From Candidatus Thiodiazotropha sp. CDECU1 (GTDB lineage: Bacteria; Pseudomonadota; Gammaproteobacteria; Chromatiales; Chromatiaceae), in contig NZ_OY734020.1 of the NCBI RefSeq assembly GCF_963455295.1, positions 1,426,001 through 1,490,000 of the forward strand: a DNA stretch of 64,000 bases, given 5' to 3'. Numbering within the stretch: the stretch's first letter is position 1; every line of letters starts with the position of its first letter. This document shows, one piece after another, positions 32,569-64,000 of this stretch. Below the pieces are notes generated by a model that saw only the letters and a list, made by a program, of their open reading frames with translations, was not told the origin of the DNA and did not search any database. The position numbers were made by a program, and so were the translations under genes.

Positions 32569-33063
32569 ATGCATGCAGTCAAGCAACGTCCGAAATTACC
32601 CAGGCCTTTGGGCTTGCCATTGCGACTGATACCCAAAAGAGCGCATGGCCTGATCCTGAGCTCTATTCTGAACAAAGTGTTTCGCAATGAACTTGTGGAT
32701 GGTGAATTGGATTTTCTCGAGGGGCGGGTTGTAGATATCAAGGTGAGTGATCTCGGTCTTGATTACAACCTGACATTGAATAACGGCGCAATTTCAGAAG
32801 CTGGTAGCGGGAAATCAGATCTTCGTATTACCGGATCAGTTTATGATTACCTGTTGTTGATCAGTGGCAAGGAAGATCCTGATACCCTGTTTTTTCAAAG
32901 GCACTTGATTATGGATGGTGATACTGGATTGGGTGTTCATCTTAAGAATGTGTTGTCCGCAATCGAGATGGATCAATTACCCCTACCAGCCGATATTCGG
33001 CCCTATATCGAACGTTTTATCCGGGTATACGAGAATCTGCCCTATCTAACTGCCCGCACATAA
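32569..33063 (+). CDS. ubiT: UbiT: SCP2-domain accessory protein of anaerobic ubiquinone synthesis
   Basis: 164 residues from the ATG chosen here. SCP2 sterol-carrier-like domain: helix LPRPLGLPLRLIPKRAHGLI at the N-terminus, then the lipid-binding beta-sheet with SDLRITGSVYDYLLLISGKE and DPDTLFFQRHLIMDGDTGLG, the last being the UbiT signature. UbiT binds hydrophobic quinone precursors and works with UbiU and UbiV, both encoded at 40111-42008. An extended -10 box (TGGTATGAT at 32468-32476) lies upstream. Confidence 0.9.
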   Translation: MHAVKQRPKLPRPLGLPLRLIPKRAHGLILSSILNKVFRNELVDGELDFLEGRVVDIKVSDLGLDYNLTLNNGAISEAGSGKSDLRITGSVYDYLLLISGKEDPDTLFFQRHLIMDGDTGLGVHLKNVLSAIEMDQLPLPADIRPYIERFIRVYENLPYLTART

Positions 33064-37662: not shown

Positions 37663-39861
37663 CTAGAAAGAAGCTTTTCCTTGAAGATAGATGCGCCGTT
37701 CCCATACGTTATGGGCAGCGATGCGATCATTATGATAAAAGTCGAAGTTTTCGTTATGCAGGTTTTGCAAAATCAAGGAAATGTCGATGTTGCCTCTTGG
37801 GATGGTGATGTGTTTATTCAGCTTTAAATCAAGACGGCTGAAGTTGGGAACGGCATCGCCTTCACCAGGCCATTCCATTTCGTCGATAAAGTAGTAGGCG
37901 CTACTTGCAGAAAATCCATCGTCAAAGCTGTGGCTGGCAATAAGGCTGAATGTTCTTTTCGGGATCTTCTCGGCGGCATTTTCACGAAAACTGGGAACGC
38001 CATCCTTGATCCTTTTTAATTCGTTGCCACTAATATCCAGATAACTGAGACCCATATATATCAAGTCTCTGTTTGTCGGACGAAAGTCGATCTCAAATTC
38101 GATACCTTTAATTTCAACTTCGCCGAAGTTTGTATAGGTAAACGCACCACGTTGATATAGGCGGTTCAGTTGATCCAGTACTTCGAGAGCTAATTCATCC
38201 GTGATGCCTCGATCAGGATCAGCAATATCAAAGTGAATGTATTGATCGATAATATTGGAATATTTCTCATGAAATAGGCATAAATCAAAGTTGACTCCAT
38301 ACTCTGTGAAGTTTCCAAAATATCCAAGTTCAACGCGTTCTATCTGTTGTGGGTCGAGCTCTTCAGTGTTTATAACCCAGGTGTTAAGTTCGTCATCCTG
38401 TGAGCCAAGATATACGGAGAGATGAGCATTGTCCTCATAGATGGTCGGCATGCGAAAGGCTCTGGAGCCGCTTATTCTGAAGGTGCTCGTAGGTGATAAG
38501 TGATAGTTAACGCCCAATCTAGGAGAGAAGACATTGTCTTTACCCTCAAACTTCTCAAGCATGCCTCCGGCATTGATAACCGTGGAAGGGGAAGCATAAA
38601 ATTCAGCATTCAGAAACAATCTGTAAAGATCTCTTGAGATTGGTTCATCCTCCTGGAGCAGAAAATAGCTTTCACCACGATCGTGTCTTGCACCAACTCC
38701 CCAGGCAACTCTCAAGTTGTCTATTGGTTCTGAGGTGTGCTCGAATTCCAGATCATAACGATGGGATTTCAGTCCGATCCATGAAAAAAGCATAGGTGAG
38801 TCGGTTAGGTTCAAGGCGCTTAACAATGCATCAAAATCGTAAACGCCACCAGATAGCGCGGCGGCGAAGAGATCTGCTCTGATCGATTCATCAAAACCTT
38901 GCAAATCATCGAGGGAATTGATCTGATCAGACAGGCGTGGCAGGTGATTCAGGTCATCGACAGAGTAGTAGTTGTGATAGAATTGCAGGCTTACCTTGCT
39001 TTTTTCAGATAATACTCGATTCCACTCGATGAACTGATAGTTGTACTGATTGTCGAGCTCGCGTTCCGTCTGTAGCAGGCTAGGCAGGCCTTCATCATAA
39101 TTACCGTAAGCAGCACCTACGGTGGTACGAATCGAATTGTTTATATCGATATTATAGTCACTGTCCAGCTTAAGCCACTTGGCTCGTGATGAGTCGTCCC
39201 TATTGTCGAAACCTTCACCCTCTTTGTAACTCGTCGAAAGCCGGTAATCCAATTTGCCGACACTGTCTGAATAGGCCGCCTCCACATATCGGGTTTTTTC
39301 ATATCCTGTTGTGACCGATAGCATCGTACCGGGAAGATCGGCTGGGTGTTCGGTTACAATATTGATGACACCTGCATAGGAGTTCGAACCGTAAGCCGCG
39401 GCATTCGGACCGCGGATGACCTCGATGCGCAGTATTTCATCCAGGCTTAAATATATTTCAGTCCAAGGGATGCCGCCAAACAGGGGATCGTATATTGACC
39501 TTCCGTCAATTAGAACCTGCATGTCTCTGGCATATTCATCCGCATGCCCATGGTAGCTGACTGTAGTACTGGTGCCCGAAAAAAAACCGACCGTGAATCC
39601 GGGGACCAACCTGAGCAGATCTGGCAGGTTCAAAGCAGCGCTGGCCTGAATCATTTTTCGGTCTATGACAGTCATTGCGGTCGGGGTATCGGATTGTGCC
39701 TGAGAAAGTCTGGACGCCGAGAGTACGACCGGTAAATCATCATAGAAATAGCTTTCAGTGAAAGCCAGGTTGTCATCACTACTGTTGGCGGTGCTATAAA
39801 AGATGACAAATATCAATCCAAACGGGATCAGTTGAAATTTGCGGTATATAGAATGAGACAT
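37663..39861 (-). CDS. TonB-dependent outer-membrane receptor
   Basis: 732 residues. Signal peptide to about 27, plug domain about 45-165 (DTPTAMTVIDRKMIQ, LVPGFTV, DMQVLIDGRSIYDPLFGG, IEVIRGPNAAAYGSNSYAGV), then a 22-strand-type beta-barrel ending with a terminal Phe (IYLQGKASF). No obvious TonB box. Most like receptors of the FepA/colicin I-type group; ligand unknown. First gene of an operon with the binding protein and hybrid kinase (12-base gap), and strikingly AT-rich compared with the rest of the window. Confidence 0.92.
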   Translation of the reverse strand: MSHSIYRKFQLIPFGLIFVIFYSTANSSDDNLAFTESYFYDDLPVVLSASRLSQAQSDTPTAMTVIDRKMIQASAALNLPDLLRLVPGFTVGFFSGTSTTVSYHGHADEYARDMQVLIDGRSIYDPLFGGIPWTEIYLSLDEILRIEVIRGPNAAAYGSNSYAGVINIVTEHPADLPGTMLSVTTGYEKTRYVEAAYSDSVGKLDYRLSTSYKEGEGFDNRDDSSRAKWLKLDSDYNIDINNSIRTTVGAAYGNYDEGLPSLLQTERELDNQYNYQFIEWNRVLSEKSKVSLQFYHNYYSVDDLNHLPRLSDQINSLDDLQGFDESIRADLFAAALSGGVYDFDALLSALNLTDSPMLFSWIGLKSHRYDLEFEHTSEPIDNLRVAWGVGARHDRGESYFLLQEDEPISRDLYRLFLNAEFYASPSTVINAGGMLEKFEGKDNVFSPRLGVNYHLSPTSTFRISGSRAFRMPTIYEDNAHLSVYLGSQDDELNTWVINTEELDPQQIERVELGYFGNFTEYGVNFDLCLFHEKYSNIIDQYIHFDIADPDRGITDELALEVLDQLNRLYQRGAFTYTNFGEVEIKGIEFEIDFRPTNRDLIYMGLSYLDISGNELKRIKDGVPSFRENAAEKIPKRTFSLIASHSFDDGFSASSAYYFIDEMEWPGEGDAVPNFSRLDLKLNKHITIPRGNIDISLILQNLHNENFDFYHNDRIAAHNVWERRIYLQGKASF

Positions 39862-39977
39862 ACGCGAACCTTGTGATGTATGAAAATTCTTAGCAATTCA
39901 GAGGTTTTGTCAGCCAGTTCGCATAGGTTGCGAAGTAGCGTCCCCCGACTTCTGTTGTCTTCATTGATTATGATACA

Positions 39978-39991
39978 CCACACGCGTGTGG
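39978..39991. promoter_or_regulatory. 14-bp perfect palindrome upstream of the TonB-receptor operon
   Basis: CCACACGCGTGTGG lies 117 bases upstream of the receptor start codon. It is a likely operator or at least a symmetric binding site; no matching site was seen elsewhere in the window. Confidence 0.45.
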
Positions 39992-39994
39992 GCG

Positions 39995-40017
39995 TTATAT
40001 CCCTATGCGGGAGATAA
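39995..40017. promoter_or_regulatory. Inverted repeat upstream of the TonB-receptor operon
   Basis: TTATATCCC and GGGAGATAA form a 9-bp inverted repeat with one mismatch and a 5-base spacer. It is immediately beside the 14-bp palindrome. A third palindrome, GGTCAGCTGACC, is at 40035-40046. Confidence 0.35.
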
Positions 40018-40110
40018 TCCGGATACACCTGCAAGGTCAGCTGACCAGCACCAGCGTTTGGAGTTATGGGTAAACCTCAGGATGGCGGTTTGCAGGTATG
40101 ATTTTGAGAT

Positions 40111-41004
40111 TTAGTCGGGGGAATTAAATTCATCTTGGCCGCTCGTTCCGTGCCAATATCCGTTACATGCCCCGAGTGGCATATATCTACTGAGATCAGT
40201 CAGGCTTTCATGATTAATGGCGTTGTGGAAGGCGACCACAATTTTTTCAGTAAATCTGGATTGCGGGCTAATCCTCAGAACATCGACCTCTAACTGCTTG
40301 AGTAAAGGTAGCTCAGTGAGTAGATTGCAGGTCTTTGCCGAAACGGTCTGGATGCCGTTTAATGCAAGAAAGGGCTCATTCTCCTGAGTGGAAAGCAAAC
40401 GACCATCGGGATAGTCGATACATTTGTATTGGCAATCATCTTTCGGAAGATTGTGGGAGCGAGCGGTAAAACATCTGGCCGATAGGGTCAATGGCATACG
40501 TCCATAGGAGAAGACTTCGGTTTCGACCCCGTCTGCTCGAATCGAGTGGATCTGTTGCAGTGTCCGATTTGAGAGTTCTACCGGTAGTACCCAGCGTTTC
40601 AGTCCCTTCGATGCCAATAGATTGAGCGTCGCCGCATTATAGATGTTGACGCTGGGACCGGTTACAAAAGGGAGCCCTTTTTTACTCATGATCTGAACAG
40701 CACCGATATCGTTGGCCTCGATCATGAAACGCCCGTTGTCACATAGTCTTCTGAGGGTCTTGAGTTCCGACTCCGCCTCAATCAAGGCAAGCGAAGAGAG
40801 TACAATCTCCTTATCGCTTTGTTCGCTCAATTTATTCGCCAGGTCGAGCCAGTCACTGCTGCTAAGACTGCGTCTTTTGGAGCAGACAGTCTCACCCAGA
40901 TAGATGATATCCACCGGCATTTGTGCGACTTGGTCATAGAAATCAAATAGTGTATCCCTCGACCAATAATACAGTACCGGGCCGAGTGAGAGTTTCGGAT
41001 TCAT
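40111..41004 (-). CDS. ubiV: UbiV: U32-family subunit of anaerobic ubiquinone hydroxylase
   Basis: 297 residues from the ATG chosen to match homologues that begin close to a GPVLYYWS motif; an in-frame ATG 6 bases earlier also exists. U32 peptidase-like barrel with four cysteines Cys41 (ETVCSKRR), Cys178 (RCFTARS), Cys191 and Cys195 (CQYKC), matching the [4Fe-4S] ligands of E. coli UbiV. With UbiU it hydroxylates quinone precursors without O2, using prephenate. It follows ubiU by a few bases. Confidence 0.92.
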   Translation of the reverse strand: MNPKLSLGPVLYYWSRDTLFDFYDQVAQMPVDIIYLGETVCSKRRSLSSSDWLDLANKLSEQSDKEIVLSSLALIEAESELKTLRRLCDNGRFMIEANDIGAVQIMSKKGLPFVTGPSVNIYNAATLNLLASKGLKRWVLPVELSNRTLQQIHSIRADGVETEVFSYGRMPLTLSARCFTARSHNLPKDDCQYKCIDYPDGRLLSTQENEPFLALNGIQTVSAKTCNLLTELPLLKQLEVDVLRISPQSRFTEKIVVAFHNAINHESLTDLSRYMPLGACNGYWHGTSGQDEFNSPD

Positions 41005-41012
41005 ACGCATCT

Positions 41013-42008
41013 TTATTGCCAAGGCCGGTAGTATGGGCCCAATGTTGTACTCGCCCCTTCCGAGACCCGGTCGAGAATATCGTTCCAAGCAGAAGTTGCT
41101 TCGAACCTGTCGGGATCCTGCAAACAGTGGTCTATCGCTTCACGCCAGACTTTGGTCACCTGAGCCACATACGCCGGGGTACGCTGGCGGCCCTCGATCT
41201 TGATTGCCTTGATGCCGGAATGTAACAGCTCCGGAAGCAGTGCCAGGGTATTCAGTGAGGTGGGTTCCTCAATGGCGTAGTAGGTGTTGTCGCCTACTGC
41301 AAACCTTCCCTTGCAGATCGTCGGATAACCGGCTGTTTCATGCTTTTGGTATCGGTCAGTCAATAGACCACCCAGGCGTGACTCCAGACCCCTCGGCGTC
41401 TCCCGGTATTCAACGAACTGAGCCGGTGAACAGGCGCCGTGGGTGTTGGGTGATTCACCTGTGACATAGGATGAGAGGATGCAGCGTCCTTCCACCATCA
41501 CACACAGGCTGCCGAAGCCGAAGACTTCTATTTCAACCGGGGTATTTTCTACCACATGCTTTACCTGGCTGAGTGACAGTACACGTGGCAACACTGCGCG
41601 TTTGATGCCGAATGATTCGTGATAGAAGGCGAGCGCCTCATAGTTGGTGCTCGATGCCTGCACCGAGAGATGCAGGTTGAGGTCGGGCCAGTGCCGGCTG
41701 GCATAGTCCAGTACGCCTATGTCAGCGCAGATCAGAGCATCAACCGACAACCCAGCGGCGCTGTCCACTGCTTTACGCCAGCGTTCCCAGCCGTCAGGCC
41801 GAGGGTAGGTGTTGATCGCCATGAAAACACGTTTGCCACGGGATTTGGCATAGGCGATACCCTCCCGTGCGCGTTTTTCATTGAAATTCAATCCGGGAAA
41901 ATGGCGCGCATTGGTATCGTTGCGCAGACCGAAGTAGACTGCGTCCGCGCCACCATCCACGGCAGCCTTCAGCGAGGGTAGGTTACCTGCAGGACAAACC
42001 AGTTCCAT
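41013..42008 (-). CDS. ubiU: UbiU: U32-family subunit of anaerobic ubiquinone hydroxylase
   Basis: 331 residues from the ATG at MELVCPAGN (another ATG lies 6 bases earlier), the same length as the E. coli protein. U32 fold with DAVYFGLRNDTNARHF at the N-terminus and the four [4Fe-4S] cysteines Cys169, Cys176, Cys193 and Cys232, identical in position to E. coli UbiU. Partner of UbiV and UbiT. Third gene of an operon that begins with a radical SAM gene at 43551. Confidence 0.95.
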   Translation of the reverse strand: MELVCPAGNLPSLKAAVDGGADAVYFGLRNDTNARHFPGLNFNEKRAREGIAYAKSRGKRVFMAINTYPRPDGWERWRKAVDSAAGLSVDALICADIGVLDYASRHWPDLNLHLSVQASSTNYEALAFYHESFGIKRAVLPRVLSLSQVKHVVENTPVEIEVFGFGSLCVMVEGRCILSSYVTGESPNTHGACSPAQFVEYRETPRGLESRLGGLLTDRYQKHETAGYPTICKGRFAVGDNTYYAIEEPTSLNTLALLPELLHSGIKAIKIEGRQRTPAYVAQVTKVWREAIDHCLQDPDRFEATSAWNDILDRVSEGASTTLGPYYRPWQ

Positions 42009-42024
42009 AATCATTCATACCCGT

Positions 42025-42942
42025 TCAGGCGACCTGTCGGCACGCTGCGCGTCGTCGATGCAGTTCGGTGGTTATAGCATTCAGGACAAGCCATTTCCTG
42101 GCACACCAGAGAGGGGCCAGCAGGATTGCTTCTGCAGCGGTGCCGGTAAGACGGTGCCAGACCACGTTCGAGGGGGTCTGTTCCACCAGGTCCGCTGCAA
42201 TATTGACATAGGCCTCAAGGGTGAGAGGCTGATACTCTCCCTGACGCCAGGCATTGGCCAGCTGGGTTCCTTTGACGACATGCAGGGGGTGGAGTTTCAA
42301 TCCGTCCGTGCCCAGCTCCAATACCCTGTGCAGTGTTTCTGTGACATGATATGCAGTCTCCCCGGGGAGCCCGGCGATCAGGTGGGTGCAGACCTTGAGT
42401 CCTCGGTCTCTTGTGCGATAGACGCTATCGGCATATTCGGCGAATCCGTGTCCCCGGTTGACCTTTGCCAGGGTTTCGTCGAAGGCTGATTGCAGACCGA
42501 GTTCCAGCCACACCTCATAGCCCTGGTCCTGATAACCCGCCAGCAGATCGATGACCCCATCCGGCAGGCAGTCTGGACGGGTGCCGATGGAGAGACCGAT
42601 GACATCCTCATCAGCCAATGCCTCGTCATACAGGGCAGACAGGTGCTCAATTTCATCATAGGTATTGGTATAGGCCTGGAAATAGGCAAGATACTTACGC
42701 GCACCGGTGCGTTTGCGGATCACCCGCCGGCCCGATGCCAACTGTTCCTTGATGGGCCTGGGTTGGCGTCCGTTTGGGCTGAATGAGACGTTATTGCAGA
42801 AAGTGCAGCCACCGAGTCCCTTGCTGCCATCCCGGTTGGGGCAGGTGAATGCAGCATCGAGTGCGATTTTATGCACACGCTCACCATGACGTTTCAGCAG
42901 GTATTGTCCAAATGTGGGTACTTGTTCCGACAGGGTTGTCAT
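42025..42942 (-). CDS. YhcC-type (TIGR01212) radical SAM protein
   Basis: 305 residues. Radical SAM cysteines Cys34, Cys46 and Cys49 (CPNRDGSKGLGGCTFC), the long-spaced arrangement of the TIGR01212 family; GTRPDCLP and LELGLQSAFDETL follow as in relatives. Function is not established. The operon position between ubiU and another radical SAM gene suggests an iron-sulfur, low-oxygen role. The stop lies 16 bases before the ubiU start. Confidence 0.9.
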   Translation of the reverse strand: MTTLSEQVPTFGQYLLKRHGERVHKIALDAAFTCPNRDGSKGLGGCTFCNNVSFSPNGRQPRPIKEQLASGRRVIRKRTGARKYLAYFQAYTNTYDEIEHLSALYDEALADEDVIGLSIGTRPDCLPDGVIDLLAGYQDQGYEVWLELGLQSAFDETLAKVNRGHGFAEYADSVYRTRDRGLKVCTHLIAGLPGETAYHVTETLHRVLELGTDGLKLHPLHVVKGTQLANAWRQGEYQPLTLEAYVNIAADLVEQTPSNVVWHRLTGTAAEAILLAPLWCARKWLVLNAITTELHRRRAACRQVA

Positions 42943-42951
42943 TGCGATCCG

Positions 42952-43551
42952 CTAACCGACCTCGTTCAGGATACGCCGCCGGAAATTTACCTGCATCGAT
43001 TTTGCTATCACTTCGCATTCGGCTATGTCGACTCCCTCCAGGCCATCGATTGCTGTAGCTGTTACATCGGCAACATATTCCGGGGCCCGGCGCAGAAATT
43101 CCAGCATCGCCTCATAGGAGCCAGGCAGATTTGGTCTGCAGTGGAGGTCATAGATCTCCTTGTTCTGGGCATTCAACGAGATCGATAGTGCATCCACGCA
43201 CTCCCCGAGATCGGGCAGGGTGTCATGTTTGTGTATCAAGTTGCACAGGCCATCGGTGTTCAGGCGCACCCGGCCACCCTGCTGTTTGATATATCTGGCT
43301 ACCTCGAGGAGCAGATTTAATCTCAGAGTAGGTTCACCATAGCCGCAAAATACCACCTCGTCATAACGGGCCGGGTCATCAATCGAGGCAATAATCTCTT
43401 CTGCTGTAGGGCGATGATCAAAGGTGAGGTCATATCCTTTTACTTTCATGTCACCGTAGGTCTTTGGACAAAACTCACACTCCAATGTGCAGCGATCAGT
43501 AATACTGAGATAGAGGTTGTTGCCAATTTGATAACTTATCTGCTGTTGCAC
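42952..43551 (-). CDS. TatD-associated radical SAM protein
   Basis: 199 residues, short for the superfamily. Cluster motif CTLECEFC (Cys21, Cys25, Cys28), then GYGEPTLRL and LNTDGLCNLIHKHD. The size and motifs match TIGR04038, the radical SAM family found next to tatD in many bacteria; no tatD is present here. First gene of the radical SAM/yhcC/ubiU/ubiV operon; 9 bases before yhcC. Confidence 0.82.
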   Translation of the reverse strand: MQQQISYQIGNNLYLSITDRCTLECEFCPKTYGDMKVKGYDLTFDHRPTAEEIIASIDDPARYDEVVFCGYGEPTLRLNLLLEVARYIKQQGGRVRLNTDGLCNLIHKHDTLPDLGECVDALSISLNAQNKEIYDLHCRPNLPGSYEAMLEFLRRAPEYVADVTATAIDGLEGVDIAECEVIAKSMQVNFRRRILNEVG

Positions 43552-43610
43552 TTTCTACCCTGGGCATATAAATAGGAAGTGACATCCTAGCGTTTGAAGT
43601 GGCTGAAACA

Positions 43611-43624
43611 ATGACTTTGGTCAA
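43611..43624 (-). promoter_or_regulatory. FNR-family binding site candidate
   Basis: ATGAC-TTTG-GTCAA matches 9 of 10 defined bases of TTGAC-N4-GTCAA, within the FNR/ANR consensus TTGAY-N4-RTCAA. It sits 60 bases upstream of the start codon of the operon that ends in ubiU and ubiV. FNR activation of ubiUV is established in E. coli, which makes the site credible. Confidence 0.5.
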
Positions 43625-43647
43625 AGCAATCGGGCTGGGAAATCGAT

Positions 43648-43664
43648 TGTCACTAAGTGTGACA
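43648..43664. promoter_or_regulatory. TGTCAC-N5-GTGACA inverted repeat
   Basis: A perfect 6-bp inverted repeat with a 5-base spacer, 25 bases upstream of the FNR-like site. It lies between the radical SAM operon and the HDOD gene, whose 3' end is at 43725. Possible binding site for an additional regulator. Confidence 0.3.
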
Positions 43665-43724
43665 TTTGTGCAGGGCAATCAATCAGCAGCTTCTTATGAT
43701 AACAGGGGCTGGCATCGAATCCTG

Positions 43725-45185
43725 TCAGGGAGCGATCGATTGCACCGTTTTCTGGCAGATTACCTTGAAATTATCGTATTGCTGGCGAGTCACACCAGGA
43801 CCACTGATGCCGTTATCGGCATAGAAGAGCCCCACGGGTTTGCCCCGGATAAAGACCGACATGGAGACGAATCCGCTGTTGTTGATCTGTTCCAAGGCGG
43901 ATTGCGGAATCATCGGAAGGTATTTCTCCGCATTATCTTTGTGCAGTGAGATTGCTTGTGGTTTGTTCATTAAGGTTTTGAATAAATTGGGTTTATTCAT
44001 ATTCATCATGAAGCCTTTCAGGGAGAGTTGCTGTTCCGACTCCACCACGAACCGAGCCCTGAGGGCGCTTTTGTCCGGGCTGAGCATGGCAAACATTGCC
44101 CGGCTTAAACCCAGCTCTTCATGCATCTGTTGTAAGGCGTTGTTGAGCAACTCCTGTAACGGATTGGCACGCTTCTTGGGTGGGGGTTGAGCGGGCTCTG
44201 GCCTGGTCTCTTTGGGCGCTTGTGGTGTCGGTTTCGCAGCGGCTGGAGTCTCGGAGGTATGAGTCACCTTCGGCTGGGCCGCATCGGCTCGATCTGTAAC
44301 ATCCACTGCCTGGGTCTGCTGGGGTTCCGTATCCGCCGGGATGAGATAGAAGGCTGGCAAGGGTAGGGGCAGCCCGCACAGATCCCGTGCCGCTTTCGAT
44401 GACAGGCGGTGCAGATAGGCAGTGGCATCATCATGGGATATATCAAGAAACTCCGCCAACAACTCTATATCAGTAGCCAATTTGCCGCGATACCAGCCTA
44501 AACAGCTCTCTCTGGCCAGCACGGAGGCCAGTATCACGGAGAGAGGCTTTGGCTGGTAACTGTTGGAGGCCCCCTGGGAATCTTGAATAAGTTCCGGCAG
44601 CTGCCAGGTTAGACTCAACTCCGCACTGAGCTCTTCCAGGGTGACACCCAGTGTCTCCCGCGCCACGCTCTCGCGGGCGGCTCCTTGGCTGATTTTAGTG
44701 TGGATCGCCCGCATCTGATCCGGTGCCATTGCCCATAAGGCCATCTCCCCAATGTCGTGGAGCATTGCTGCGGTATAGAGTGAATCGGCCTCCTGCCACC
44801 CCCGTCGCTCAGCAATGCTGCGGGCGTAAATGGCGGCATGGGCAGCGCGGCTGTAGCAATCGATCAAACCGCGCCTGGGTGGACCTTTGAGTTTTCCCTC
44901 GAGAGATGGCAGGGTCCGACTCGCACGTTCAATGGCATCCATACCCAGTAGGGGTATGGCCAGGGATATCTTGGTGACGGGCTCTTTCGGCGGGCTCGGC
45001 AGGTTGTTCAGCTGCTGCATGAGATGCAGGCTGAAACCGGGGTCCCGGGAGATGACTTCTGATAACCTGCTATGGTTGACACTCGATTGTTGCAGCAGGT
45101 CCTTGACCTGAGTCAGGGTCCTTTGCATGACAAAGAGTGGCTCAGCAGAGAGCATGCGGGTCCATTCTTGGACAGTCTGGGTCAT
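43725..45185 (-). CDS. HDOD-domain signalling protein with GAF-like C-terminus
   Basis: 486 residues, cytoplasmic. HDOD domain about 20-270 (ISRDPGFSLHLMQQLN, AAMLHDIGEMALWAM). A Pro/Ala/Thr-rich linker at about 290-340 (PQAPKETRPEPAQPPPKKR) joins a C-terminal domain resembling GAF (SRAMFAMLSPDKSALRARF, SMSVFIRGKPVGLFYADNG). HDOD proteins act as non-catalytic adaptors in signalling. Transcribed away from yebC. Confidence 0.82.
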   Translation of the reverse strand: MTQTVQEWTRMLSAEPLFVMQRTLTQVKDLLQQSSVNHSRLSEVISRDPGFSLHLMQQLNNLPSPPKEPVTKISLAIPLLGMDAIERASRTLPSLEGKLKGPPRRGLIDCYSRAAHAAIYARSIAERRGWQEADSLYTAAMLHDIGEMALWAMAPDQMRAIHTKISQGAARESVARETLGVTLEELSAELSLTWQLPELIQDSQGASNSYQPKPLSVILASVLARESCLGWYRGKLATDIELLAEFLDISHDDATAYLHRLSSKAARDLCGLPLPLPAFYLIPADTEPQQTQAVDVTDRADAAQPKVTHTSETPAAAKPTPQAPKETRPEPAQPPPKKRANPLQELLNNALQQMHEELGLSRAMFAMLSPDKSALRARFVVESEQQLSLKGFMMNMNKPNLFKTLMNKPQAISLHKDNAEKYLPMIPQSALEQINNSGFVSMSVFIRGKPVGLFYADNGISGPGVTRQQYDNFKVICQKTVQSIAP

Positions 45186-45380
45186 CGGGGACTGCTCATT
45201 GAAACGATAATTGTTGCCAAATCAGTTTTGCCTTTGCGTACCACCCGGAGGCAACAGGCGCCGGTTCCCTAAGCTGAAACGGACGCCTGTTTGATACCAT
45301 CGAATTGTACTCAACAGATCGGCATTTTACAGTGAATCTTAAGCTGTCATTATTCCTCTGTTTCTGCGAGATCGGGTGGA

Positions 45381-45389
45381 TGCTAAAAT
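45381..45389 (+). promoter_or_regulatory. Extended -10 promoter candidate for yebC-ruvC
   Basis: TGCTAAAAT is an extended -10 box (TG-N-TAAAAT) about 35 bases before the yebC start. A -35 hexamer at 17 bases is weak. It probably drives the yebC-ruvC-ruvA-ruvB run. Confidence 0.45.
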
Positions 45390-45423
45390 GCGATATTTGA
45401 ATTTACAGTTTTGAGAGGTTTGT

Positions 45424-46170
45424 ATGGCAGGACACAGTAAGTGGGCCAATATCAAGCATAAGAAAGCCGCCAATGACAAAAAGCGCGGAAAGATTTGGAC
45501 CAAACTGATACGGGAGATTACCGTGGCTGCCCGCATAGGAGGGGGTGAAATCAATGCCAATCCGCGTCTGCGGCTGGCTGTTGACAAAGGGCTTGGTGCA
45601 AATATGCCCAAGGATACCATTGAACGTGCCATCAAGCGGGGTGCGGGAGGCGCCGAGGGAGATAACTATGACGAGATCCGTTATGAAGGCTATGGTCCGG
45701 GCGGTACGGCGGTCATGGTCGACTGTATGACCGATAATCGTAATCGTACCGCCTCCGAGGTGCGCCACGCTTTCAGCAAGTTGGGGGGTAATTTGGGTAC
45801 AGATGGCTCTGTCTCCTACCTGTTCAACAAGCAGGGAATGATCAGTTACAACCCGGGCGTCGATGAGGATGCCTTGATGGAGGCGGCCCTGGAGGCGGGT
45901 GCCGAGGATGTGGTCAGCAACGATGATGGTTCAGTCGATGTCATAGCAAGTCCCGAGGATTTCTCCCAAGTCAAGGATGCCCTGGTTGCCGCCGGTTTGA
46001 ATCCCGATACCGATGAAATCACCTATAATGCCTCAACCAACGCAGCCCTTGATCAGAACGATGCGGAGAAGCTGCTGCGAATGGTCGACATGCTGGAGGA
46101 CCTGGACGACGTGCAGAACGTCTACACCAATGCCGAGATTTCCGATGAGATCTTGGATGCCATTGATTGA
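45424..46170 (+). CDS. yebC: YebC/TACO1-family protein
   Basis: 248 residues, standard length. N-terminal [20 protein letters not shown] is the family hallmark, with [20 protein letters not shown] following. YebC-type proteins relieve ribosome stalling or act as DNA-binding regulators; both roles have been reported for family members. Its stop is immediately followed by the ruvC start, the usual gammaproteobacterial order. Confidence 0.97.
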
Positions 46171-63086: not shown

Positions 63087-64000
63087 ATGAAACCACCGGA
63101 ACTTCTTTCACCTGCGGGTACCTTGAAAAATGCCCGTTACGCCTTCGCTTATGGCGCCGATGCCGTCTATGCTGGTCTGCCTCGCTATAGTCTGCGGGTC
63201 AGGAACAATGACTTTATGCAGGATAATCTGGCGATCGGCATCGCCGAGGCGCATAGCCTGGGACGCCACTTCTATCTCGCCTGTAATGTGATGCCCCATA
63301 ATGCCAAGCTGAAGACCTTTATCAAGGATCTCGAGCCGATTGTCGCCATGGGGCCGGATGCCTTGATCATGTCCGATCCGGGATTGATCCTGATGGTTAG
63401 GGAGGCCTGGCCGGAGATGCCGATCCACCTCTCGGTGCAGGCCAATACGGTAAACGCGGAAGCGGTGCGATTTTGGCAGCGGCAGGGATTGAGCCGGGTG
63501 ATCCTCTCCCGTGAACTCTCCCTGGAAGAGGTGGAGGAGGTCAGGCAGGCCGTCCCGGATATGGAGCTGGAGGTGTTTATCCACGGTGCGCTCTGTATTG
63601 CCTACTCGGGCCGTTGTCTGCTGTCGGGTTACTTCAACCATCGGGATGCCAATCAGGGTACCTGTACCAACAGCTGCCGCTGGGACTACAAGGTGTCACA
63701 AGCGGTGCAGCCGCCGACAGTCAACCTGGGGCCAGCGGGGGTGGCACGCCACGACGAGGCCGACCAGACCTACTATATCGAGGAGCGGGGCAGGCCCGGT
63801 GAGCCGATGCCGATGTTCGAGGATGAACATGGCACCTATATCATGAACTCCAGGGATCTGCGGGCGGTGGAGCATGTGGCCCGGCTGGTGAATGTCGGGG
63901 TGGATTGCCTGAAGATCGAGGGCCGTACCAAGTCCCACTACTATACCGCCCGCACCACCCAGGTCTATCGGCAGGCGATCGATGATGCCGTTGCCGGACG
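63087..64000 (+). CDS. trhP: TrhP (YegQ)-like U32 tRNA hydroxylation protein, 3' end outside window
   Basis: The first 304 residues of a U32-family protein; the frame runs off the right edge without a stop. MKPPELLSPAGTLKNARYAF at the start, HLSVQANTVNAEAV, and the four-cysteine block ALCIAYSGRCLLSGYF with TCTNSCRWDY. TrhP forms 5-hydroxyuridine in certain tRNAs. Distinguished from UbiU/UbiV by length and by the SGYFNHRDANQGTCTNSC motif. 14 bases after the ChaN-PDZ gene. Confidence 0.9.
   Translation, partial: MKPPELLSPAGTLKNARYAFAYGADAVYAGLPRYSLRVRNNDFMQDNLAIGIAEAHSLGRHFYLACNVMPHNAKLKTFIKDLEPIVAMGPDALIMSDPGLILMVREAWPEMPIHLSVQANTVNAEAVRFWQRQGLSRVILSRELSLEEVEEVRQAVPDMELEVFIHGALCIAYSGRCLLSGYFNHRDANQGTCTNSCRWDYKVSQAVQPPTVNLGPAGVARHDEADQTYYIEERGRPGEPMPMFEDEHGTYIMNSRDLRAVEHVARLVNVGVDCLKIEGRTKSHYYTARTTQVYRQAIDDAVAG

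Follow-up and report, generated by a model that had tools for sequence, protein, structure and literature searches.

A conserved FNR-like site precedes a radical SAM–mnmL–ubiU–ubiV operon in Candidatus Thiodiazotropha and its relatives

Does the FNR-like sequence in front of the radical SAM–ubiUV genes of Candidatus Thiodiazotropha sp. CDECU1 serve as an oxygen-control site, and if so, which regulator would use it? We analysed a 64,000-nucleotide stretch (the window) of this 4.46-Mb genome. Four closely packed genes lie there on the minus strand, encoding, in order, a TatD-associated radical SAM protein (rSAM; TIGR04038; 42952–43551, with a GTG start at 43551), the radical SAM protein MnmL/YtqA (TIGR01212; 42025–42942), UbiU (41013–42014; NF047963, 551 bits against a cut-off of 440) and UbiV (40111–41010; NF047965, 387 bits, cut-off 275). 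The start codon of ubiV, chosen by inspection, is probably the ATG at 41010 or the one at 41004, adjoining the end of ubiU. All four genes belong to families that we take to be known for Fe-S clusters, and the best matches to this UbiU come from Candidatus Thiodiazotropha and other lucinid symbionts. The 173-base intergenic region 5’ of rSAM contains both the FNR-like site and a palindrome. Upstream of the operon promoter lies a minus-strand gene (43725–45185) with no NCBIfam match; at 11 of the 80 named loci a homologue of it is found before the operon, and one further locus (L146) gave a weak match of 22% identity.

The FNR consensus is a 14-bp inverted repeat, TTGAY-N4-RTCAA, with the strict form TTGAT-N4-ATCAA. 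The first-pass annotation of this DNA had reported a near-consensus FNR/ANR site at 43611–43624, some 60 bases 5’ of the first gene, and the site is present exactly there, with 59 bases between it and the GTG start. On the minus strand it reads TTGACCAAAGTCAT (plus strand, ATGACTTTGGTCAA), which departs from the degenerate consensus at one position and from the strict one at three of ten. A scan of the window with the strict consensus, allowing up to two mismatches, returned 57 matches that did not include this site. When the intergenic region was shuffled 2000 times with dinucleotides kept, 69 shuffles did at least as well against the degenerate form. Judged by its letters alone, the site is thus only mildly distinguished from chance. 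What makes it convincing is its conservation in all 19 genomes of the genus in which it could be read.

The first-pass annotation had suggested seeking the site before the ubiUV operons of relatives, and we searched 21 genus genomes for the locus. Two of them lacked an rSAM match (G009, whose contig stops just beyond ubiU, and G015); the alignment has 19 rows, made up of this genome and 18 other species. The site with its flanking TTGT, TTGAYCAAAGTCATTGT, was found in every row, with 16 of 17 columns invariant and either T or C at position 5. Mean pairwise identity over these rows was 0.96 in the site, 0.49 before it, 0.60 from the site to the -10-like element and 0.45 beyond that element, and in each of the 19 genomes the site is conserved above the surrounding DNA. 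In one of the loci (L059) the first gene has two stop codons, yet the site upstream is intact. A second genome of the same species (G056) carries the site as well (L215). Three Lamellibrachia symbionts have TTGATTCAGATCATTGT at equal spacing to a TAGGAT, the site differing only at degenerate positions. Outside the genus we scanned seven rSAM loci, having left out four weaker matches (L068–L071) and three without a locus, which by score are other radical SAM proteins; three of the seven (L062, L065 and L066) have a site with 0–1 mismatch 56–68 bases before the gene, and the remaining four have no such site there. Judged from the relatives, TTGACCAAAGTCAT is almost certainly functional.

The spacing of the site from other promoter elements suggests how it might work. 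A probable -10 element, TAGGAT, lies on the minus strand at 43584–43589, 21 bases after the site (31 bases from centre to centre), and TANGAT is found at constant distance from the site in 19/19 genus genomes. Taking TAGGAT as the -10 puts the predicted start near 43577 and the centre of the site at about -40.5; in class II FNR promoters the site is centred near -41.5. The hexamer TTGTTT (43606–43611, minus strand), which overlaps the last base of the site and is kept as TTGTNT in all 19 genomes, reads as a weak -35. A sigma-70 promoter search over the region 5’ of the operon gave no promoter-like sites at consensus level, as would be expected if the promoter depends on an activator. The central CAAA of the site and the TTGT that follows (43608–43624) were invariant throughout the 19 genomes. 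This exceeds what FNR alone should need; the TTGT part may be held as the -35.

We consider it likely, from sequence and comparison, that TTGACCAAAGTCAT is the FNR binding site of the rSAM–mnmL–ubiU–ubiV operon, in a promoter of class II that depends on an activator. When oxygen drops, FNR would retain its [4Fe-4S] cluster and dimerise, and the dimer would sit on the site, centred 40–41 bases 5’ of the predicted start. From there it would recruit RNA polymerase to a promoter whose -10 is usable but whose -35 is poor, and the four genes would be transcribed, allowing ubiquinone synthesis without O2. For this scheme we infer FNR binding, activation, the start site and a single transcript for the operon. 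Several features count against it. The site matches the strict consensus only modestly, CAAA and TTGT are over-conserved, and many of the related loci headed by mnmL or ubiU have no such site close to the head gene (counts below). In addition, several regulators in the genome share the E-x2-SR motif, so that more than one could be a candidate for this site.

The proteins of CRP/FNR type encoded in the genome are CRP (L005), a canonical FNR (L003) with one paralogue (L001), and L004 and L006, both of which we would read as DNR/NNR-type. The first-pass annotation had made its proposal depend on an FNR homologue being encoded, and L003 is a four-cysteine FNR: it scores 285.6 bits against the Fnr model (cut-off 228) and has C-x2-C-x5-C, a later fourth cysteine and an E-x2-SR recognition helix. 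In an alignment with the solved FNR-type regulator 9qll, the C-x2-C-x5-C motif, the fourth cysteine and the ETVSR/ETISR segment correspond; these are presumably the residues that matter, as cluster cysteines and recognition segment. FNR was above the cut-off in 22/22 genus genomes. Furthermore, exact TTGAYN4RTCAA sites are enriched in this genome (40, versus 6 for a reversed control pattern); 11 of the 40 are spanned by open reading frames of more than 150 amino acids. One such site precedes fnr itself. Ten of the 56 candidate reading frames downstream of exact sites, picked as recognisable-looking, were scanned for domains and gave a nitrous-oxide-reductase (nos) propeller, COX1, COX3, anaerobic NRDD, CCP_MauG, ferredoxin, hemerythrin, multihaem cytochrome, cytochrome c and ODP. 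What we observe, and what the FNR reading builds on, is the site, its conservation, its spacing, the FNR gene and this enrichment. Elsewhere in the genome, nine exact FNR/DNR-type sites fall within about 37 kb (G000:C1:2253785-2290751), near genes with nos-propeller, cytochrome c and COX3 domains and a DNR-like gene, in what is a probable denitrification cluster.

Could a nitric-oxide-responding regulator of the DNR/NNR type use the site in place of FNR, tying ubiquinone synthesis to denitrification? Both L004 and L006 have the same E-x2-SR motif, and two TTGAY-N4-RTCAA sites precede L006 itself. However, G017 (99% complete) lacks both proteins at E<1e-20, yet has FNR and the site (L060), which favours FNR, on the evidence of one genome. 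As far as the available text of PMC10247376 goes, ubiUVT transcription in P. aeruginosa is likewise governed by the FNR homologue Anr, active at low oxygen. We regard a DNR/NNR-type regulator as quite improbable here. The paralogue L001 seems to us a shade less probable still as the regulator at this promoter: it scores 142.6 bits against the Fnr model, below the cut-off, and has an ETVSR motif and a C-x2-C-x5-C of its own. Many congeners, G017 among them, likewise have a second Fnr-like match, at about 140–170 bits, but nothing singles the paralogue out over the canonical FNR found above cut-off throughout the genus.

Independently of the FNR question, the palindrome might be an operator for another regulator, as the first-pass annotation implied in describing a second inverted site. 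The inverted repeat itself is real: TGTCACTAAGTGTGACA is an exact TGTCAC-N5-GTGACA (6+5+6) at 43648–43664, 23 bases from the FNR site, and it is shared with the same-species genome (L215). Its regulatory role did not hold up. It is missing from 18/18 other species of the genus (best 3–5 mismatches) and is not recurrent in this genome, with one exact copy and 14 places within one mismatch versus 24 for a reversed control pattern, and in 487 of 2000 shuffles at least one perfect inverted repeat of 6 bases arose around a spacer of 3–10 bases. Species-specific, unenriched and at chance level, it was rejected as a second operator, a role to which we give a very small probability. That TTGACC is a mere sigma-70 -35 box, with the FNR likeness accidental, is barely credible and was rejected: it agrees with TTGACA at 5/6 positions, but no -10 lies 16–18 bases from it (0 promoter-like sites), the genus has T or C at position 5 against an invariant second half site, and in the Lamellibrachia symbionts both half sites are retained around different central bases.

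FNR as the preferred regulator also agrees with what is known of the pathway elsewhere. The E. coli precedent invoked in the first pass is in print: FNR control of ubiUV has been published (PMC10470549, PMC11707229, each available to us in part). In the accessible text of PMC10470549, the E. coli F1 site lies 36 nucleotides 5’ of the ubiUV start, its mutation abolishes UbiV production without O2, and UbiU and UbiV are undetected in air. As at F1, an FNR-type site stands here just 5’ of the ubiUV unit, in what would be an activating position relative to a start that is only predicted; unlike in E. coli, the unit opens with two radical SAM genes, and ubiT, some 7 kb distant, lacks an FNR-like site. 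A survey across Pseudomonadota (PMC11707229), as far as its available text goes, searched 450 bp before ubiT, ubiU and ubiV and found FNR sites for 1362 of 1566 ubiTUV triplets. The present locus shares their regulator class and pathway and corresponds to architecture 4 (ubiT apart), but about 1.6 kb separate its site from ubiU, which would put it beyond the 450-bp scan. The link between an FNR-type regulator and the ubiUV pathway at low oxygen is common to P. aeruginosa as well, where, by the portion of PMC10247376 available, the small RNA SicX adds post-transcriptional control; here Rfam matched no family in 39500–46000, and a riboswitch or known small RNA near the operon was dropped from consideration.

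We asked whether the site keeps to whichever gene comes first in the operon, using 80 named loci picked by similarity to this UbiU; many are close relatives, so the counts are not independent. A site with 0–1 mismatch lies no more than 200 bases before the head gene in 11/11 loci headed by rSAM and mnmL, in 0/1 headed by rSAM only and in 18 of 27 scannable loci headed by mnmL (of 30 in all; the other 9 of the 27 have none). Taken together, rSAM- and/or mnmL-headed loci have it before the head gene in 29 of 39 cases, and only one of these 39 has a site within 450 bases of ubiU. Loci with neither gene upstream of ubiU have the site in 12 of 34 scannable cases (of 38) and lack it in 22; part of these misses may be displaced sites, since other upstream genes were not traced there. 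When 200-base windows were drawn at random from these loci, with the sites left in, 380 of 8000 contained a 0–1 mismatch site. What is new here is that in rSAM- and/or mnmL-headed operons the site precedes the head gene, outside the published 450-bp ubiU window. Directly 5’ of ubiU, on the same strand and with a gap of at most 250 bases, mnmL occurs in 41/80 loci, which suggests a functional tie. The main text of PMC11707229, in the form available, makes no mention of yhcC, radical SAM or Thiodiazotropha, and the retrieved part of a lucinid-symbiont transcriptome paper (PMC12172469) contains no FNR, radical SAM or U32 and mentions ubiquinone once. Our literature search returned no paper joining TatD-associated radical SAM genes with ubiquinone operons, and none on MnmL as a radical SAM protein.

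The sequence comparisons offer good support for reading this locus as an ordinary FNR site in a known role, standing before the first gene of an extended operon and out of reach of scans anchored on ubiU. The published FNR–ubiUV link would thereby extend to chemosynthetic symbionts. Where rSAM or mnmL heads the operon, the site will escape surveys restricted to the DNA before ubiU or ubiT. The two radical SAM genes become probable members of an oxygen-controlled unit, which is a testable lead on their role. A broader proposal, that MnmL and the TatD-associated rSAM participate in O2-independent ubiquinone synthesis or are coupled to it, and also that FNR control has been undercounted across this large bacterial group because the site precedes an accessory head gene, we think unlikely as a whole; if it were true, these proteins might act, for example, in electron supply or in a tRNA modification needed under anoxia.

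The O2-independent ubiquinone pathway is represented by ubiU, ubiV and ubiT, all above curated cut-offs. Some 7 kb from ubiV, the ubiT gene is on the plus strand at 32569–33063 (NF047962, 126 bits against a cut-off of 46.9). No FNR-like site with 0–1 mismatch turned up over the 250 bases 5’ of ubiT in any of 21 genus loci, one of which (L179) has an unresolved start that voids its region; L184 and L185 reach two mismatches. A -10-like TGNTATGAT precedes ubiT in 17/21 loci. E. coli ubiT has a second, constitutive promoter, according to the available text of PMC10470549, and the lack of an FNR-like site together with the conserved TGNTATGAT fits ubiT being made in air here too. The congener G015 (2.6 Mb, 93% complete) has no rSAM, only a 21.5-bit match to ubiT and only a 122-bit, paralogue-level match to ubiU, with FNR kept; by these matches the O2-independent pathway seems to have been lost there. 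The window itself also encodes a UbiU paralogue on the plus strand (63099–63992; 33% identity, 128 bits), probably TrhP, a guess from the second NCBIfam match of the UbiU protein.
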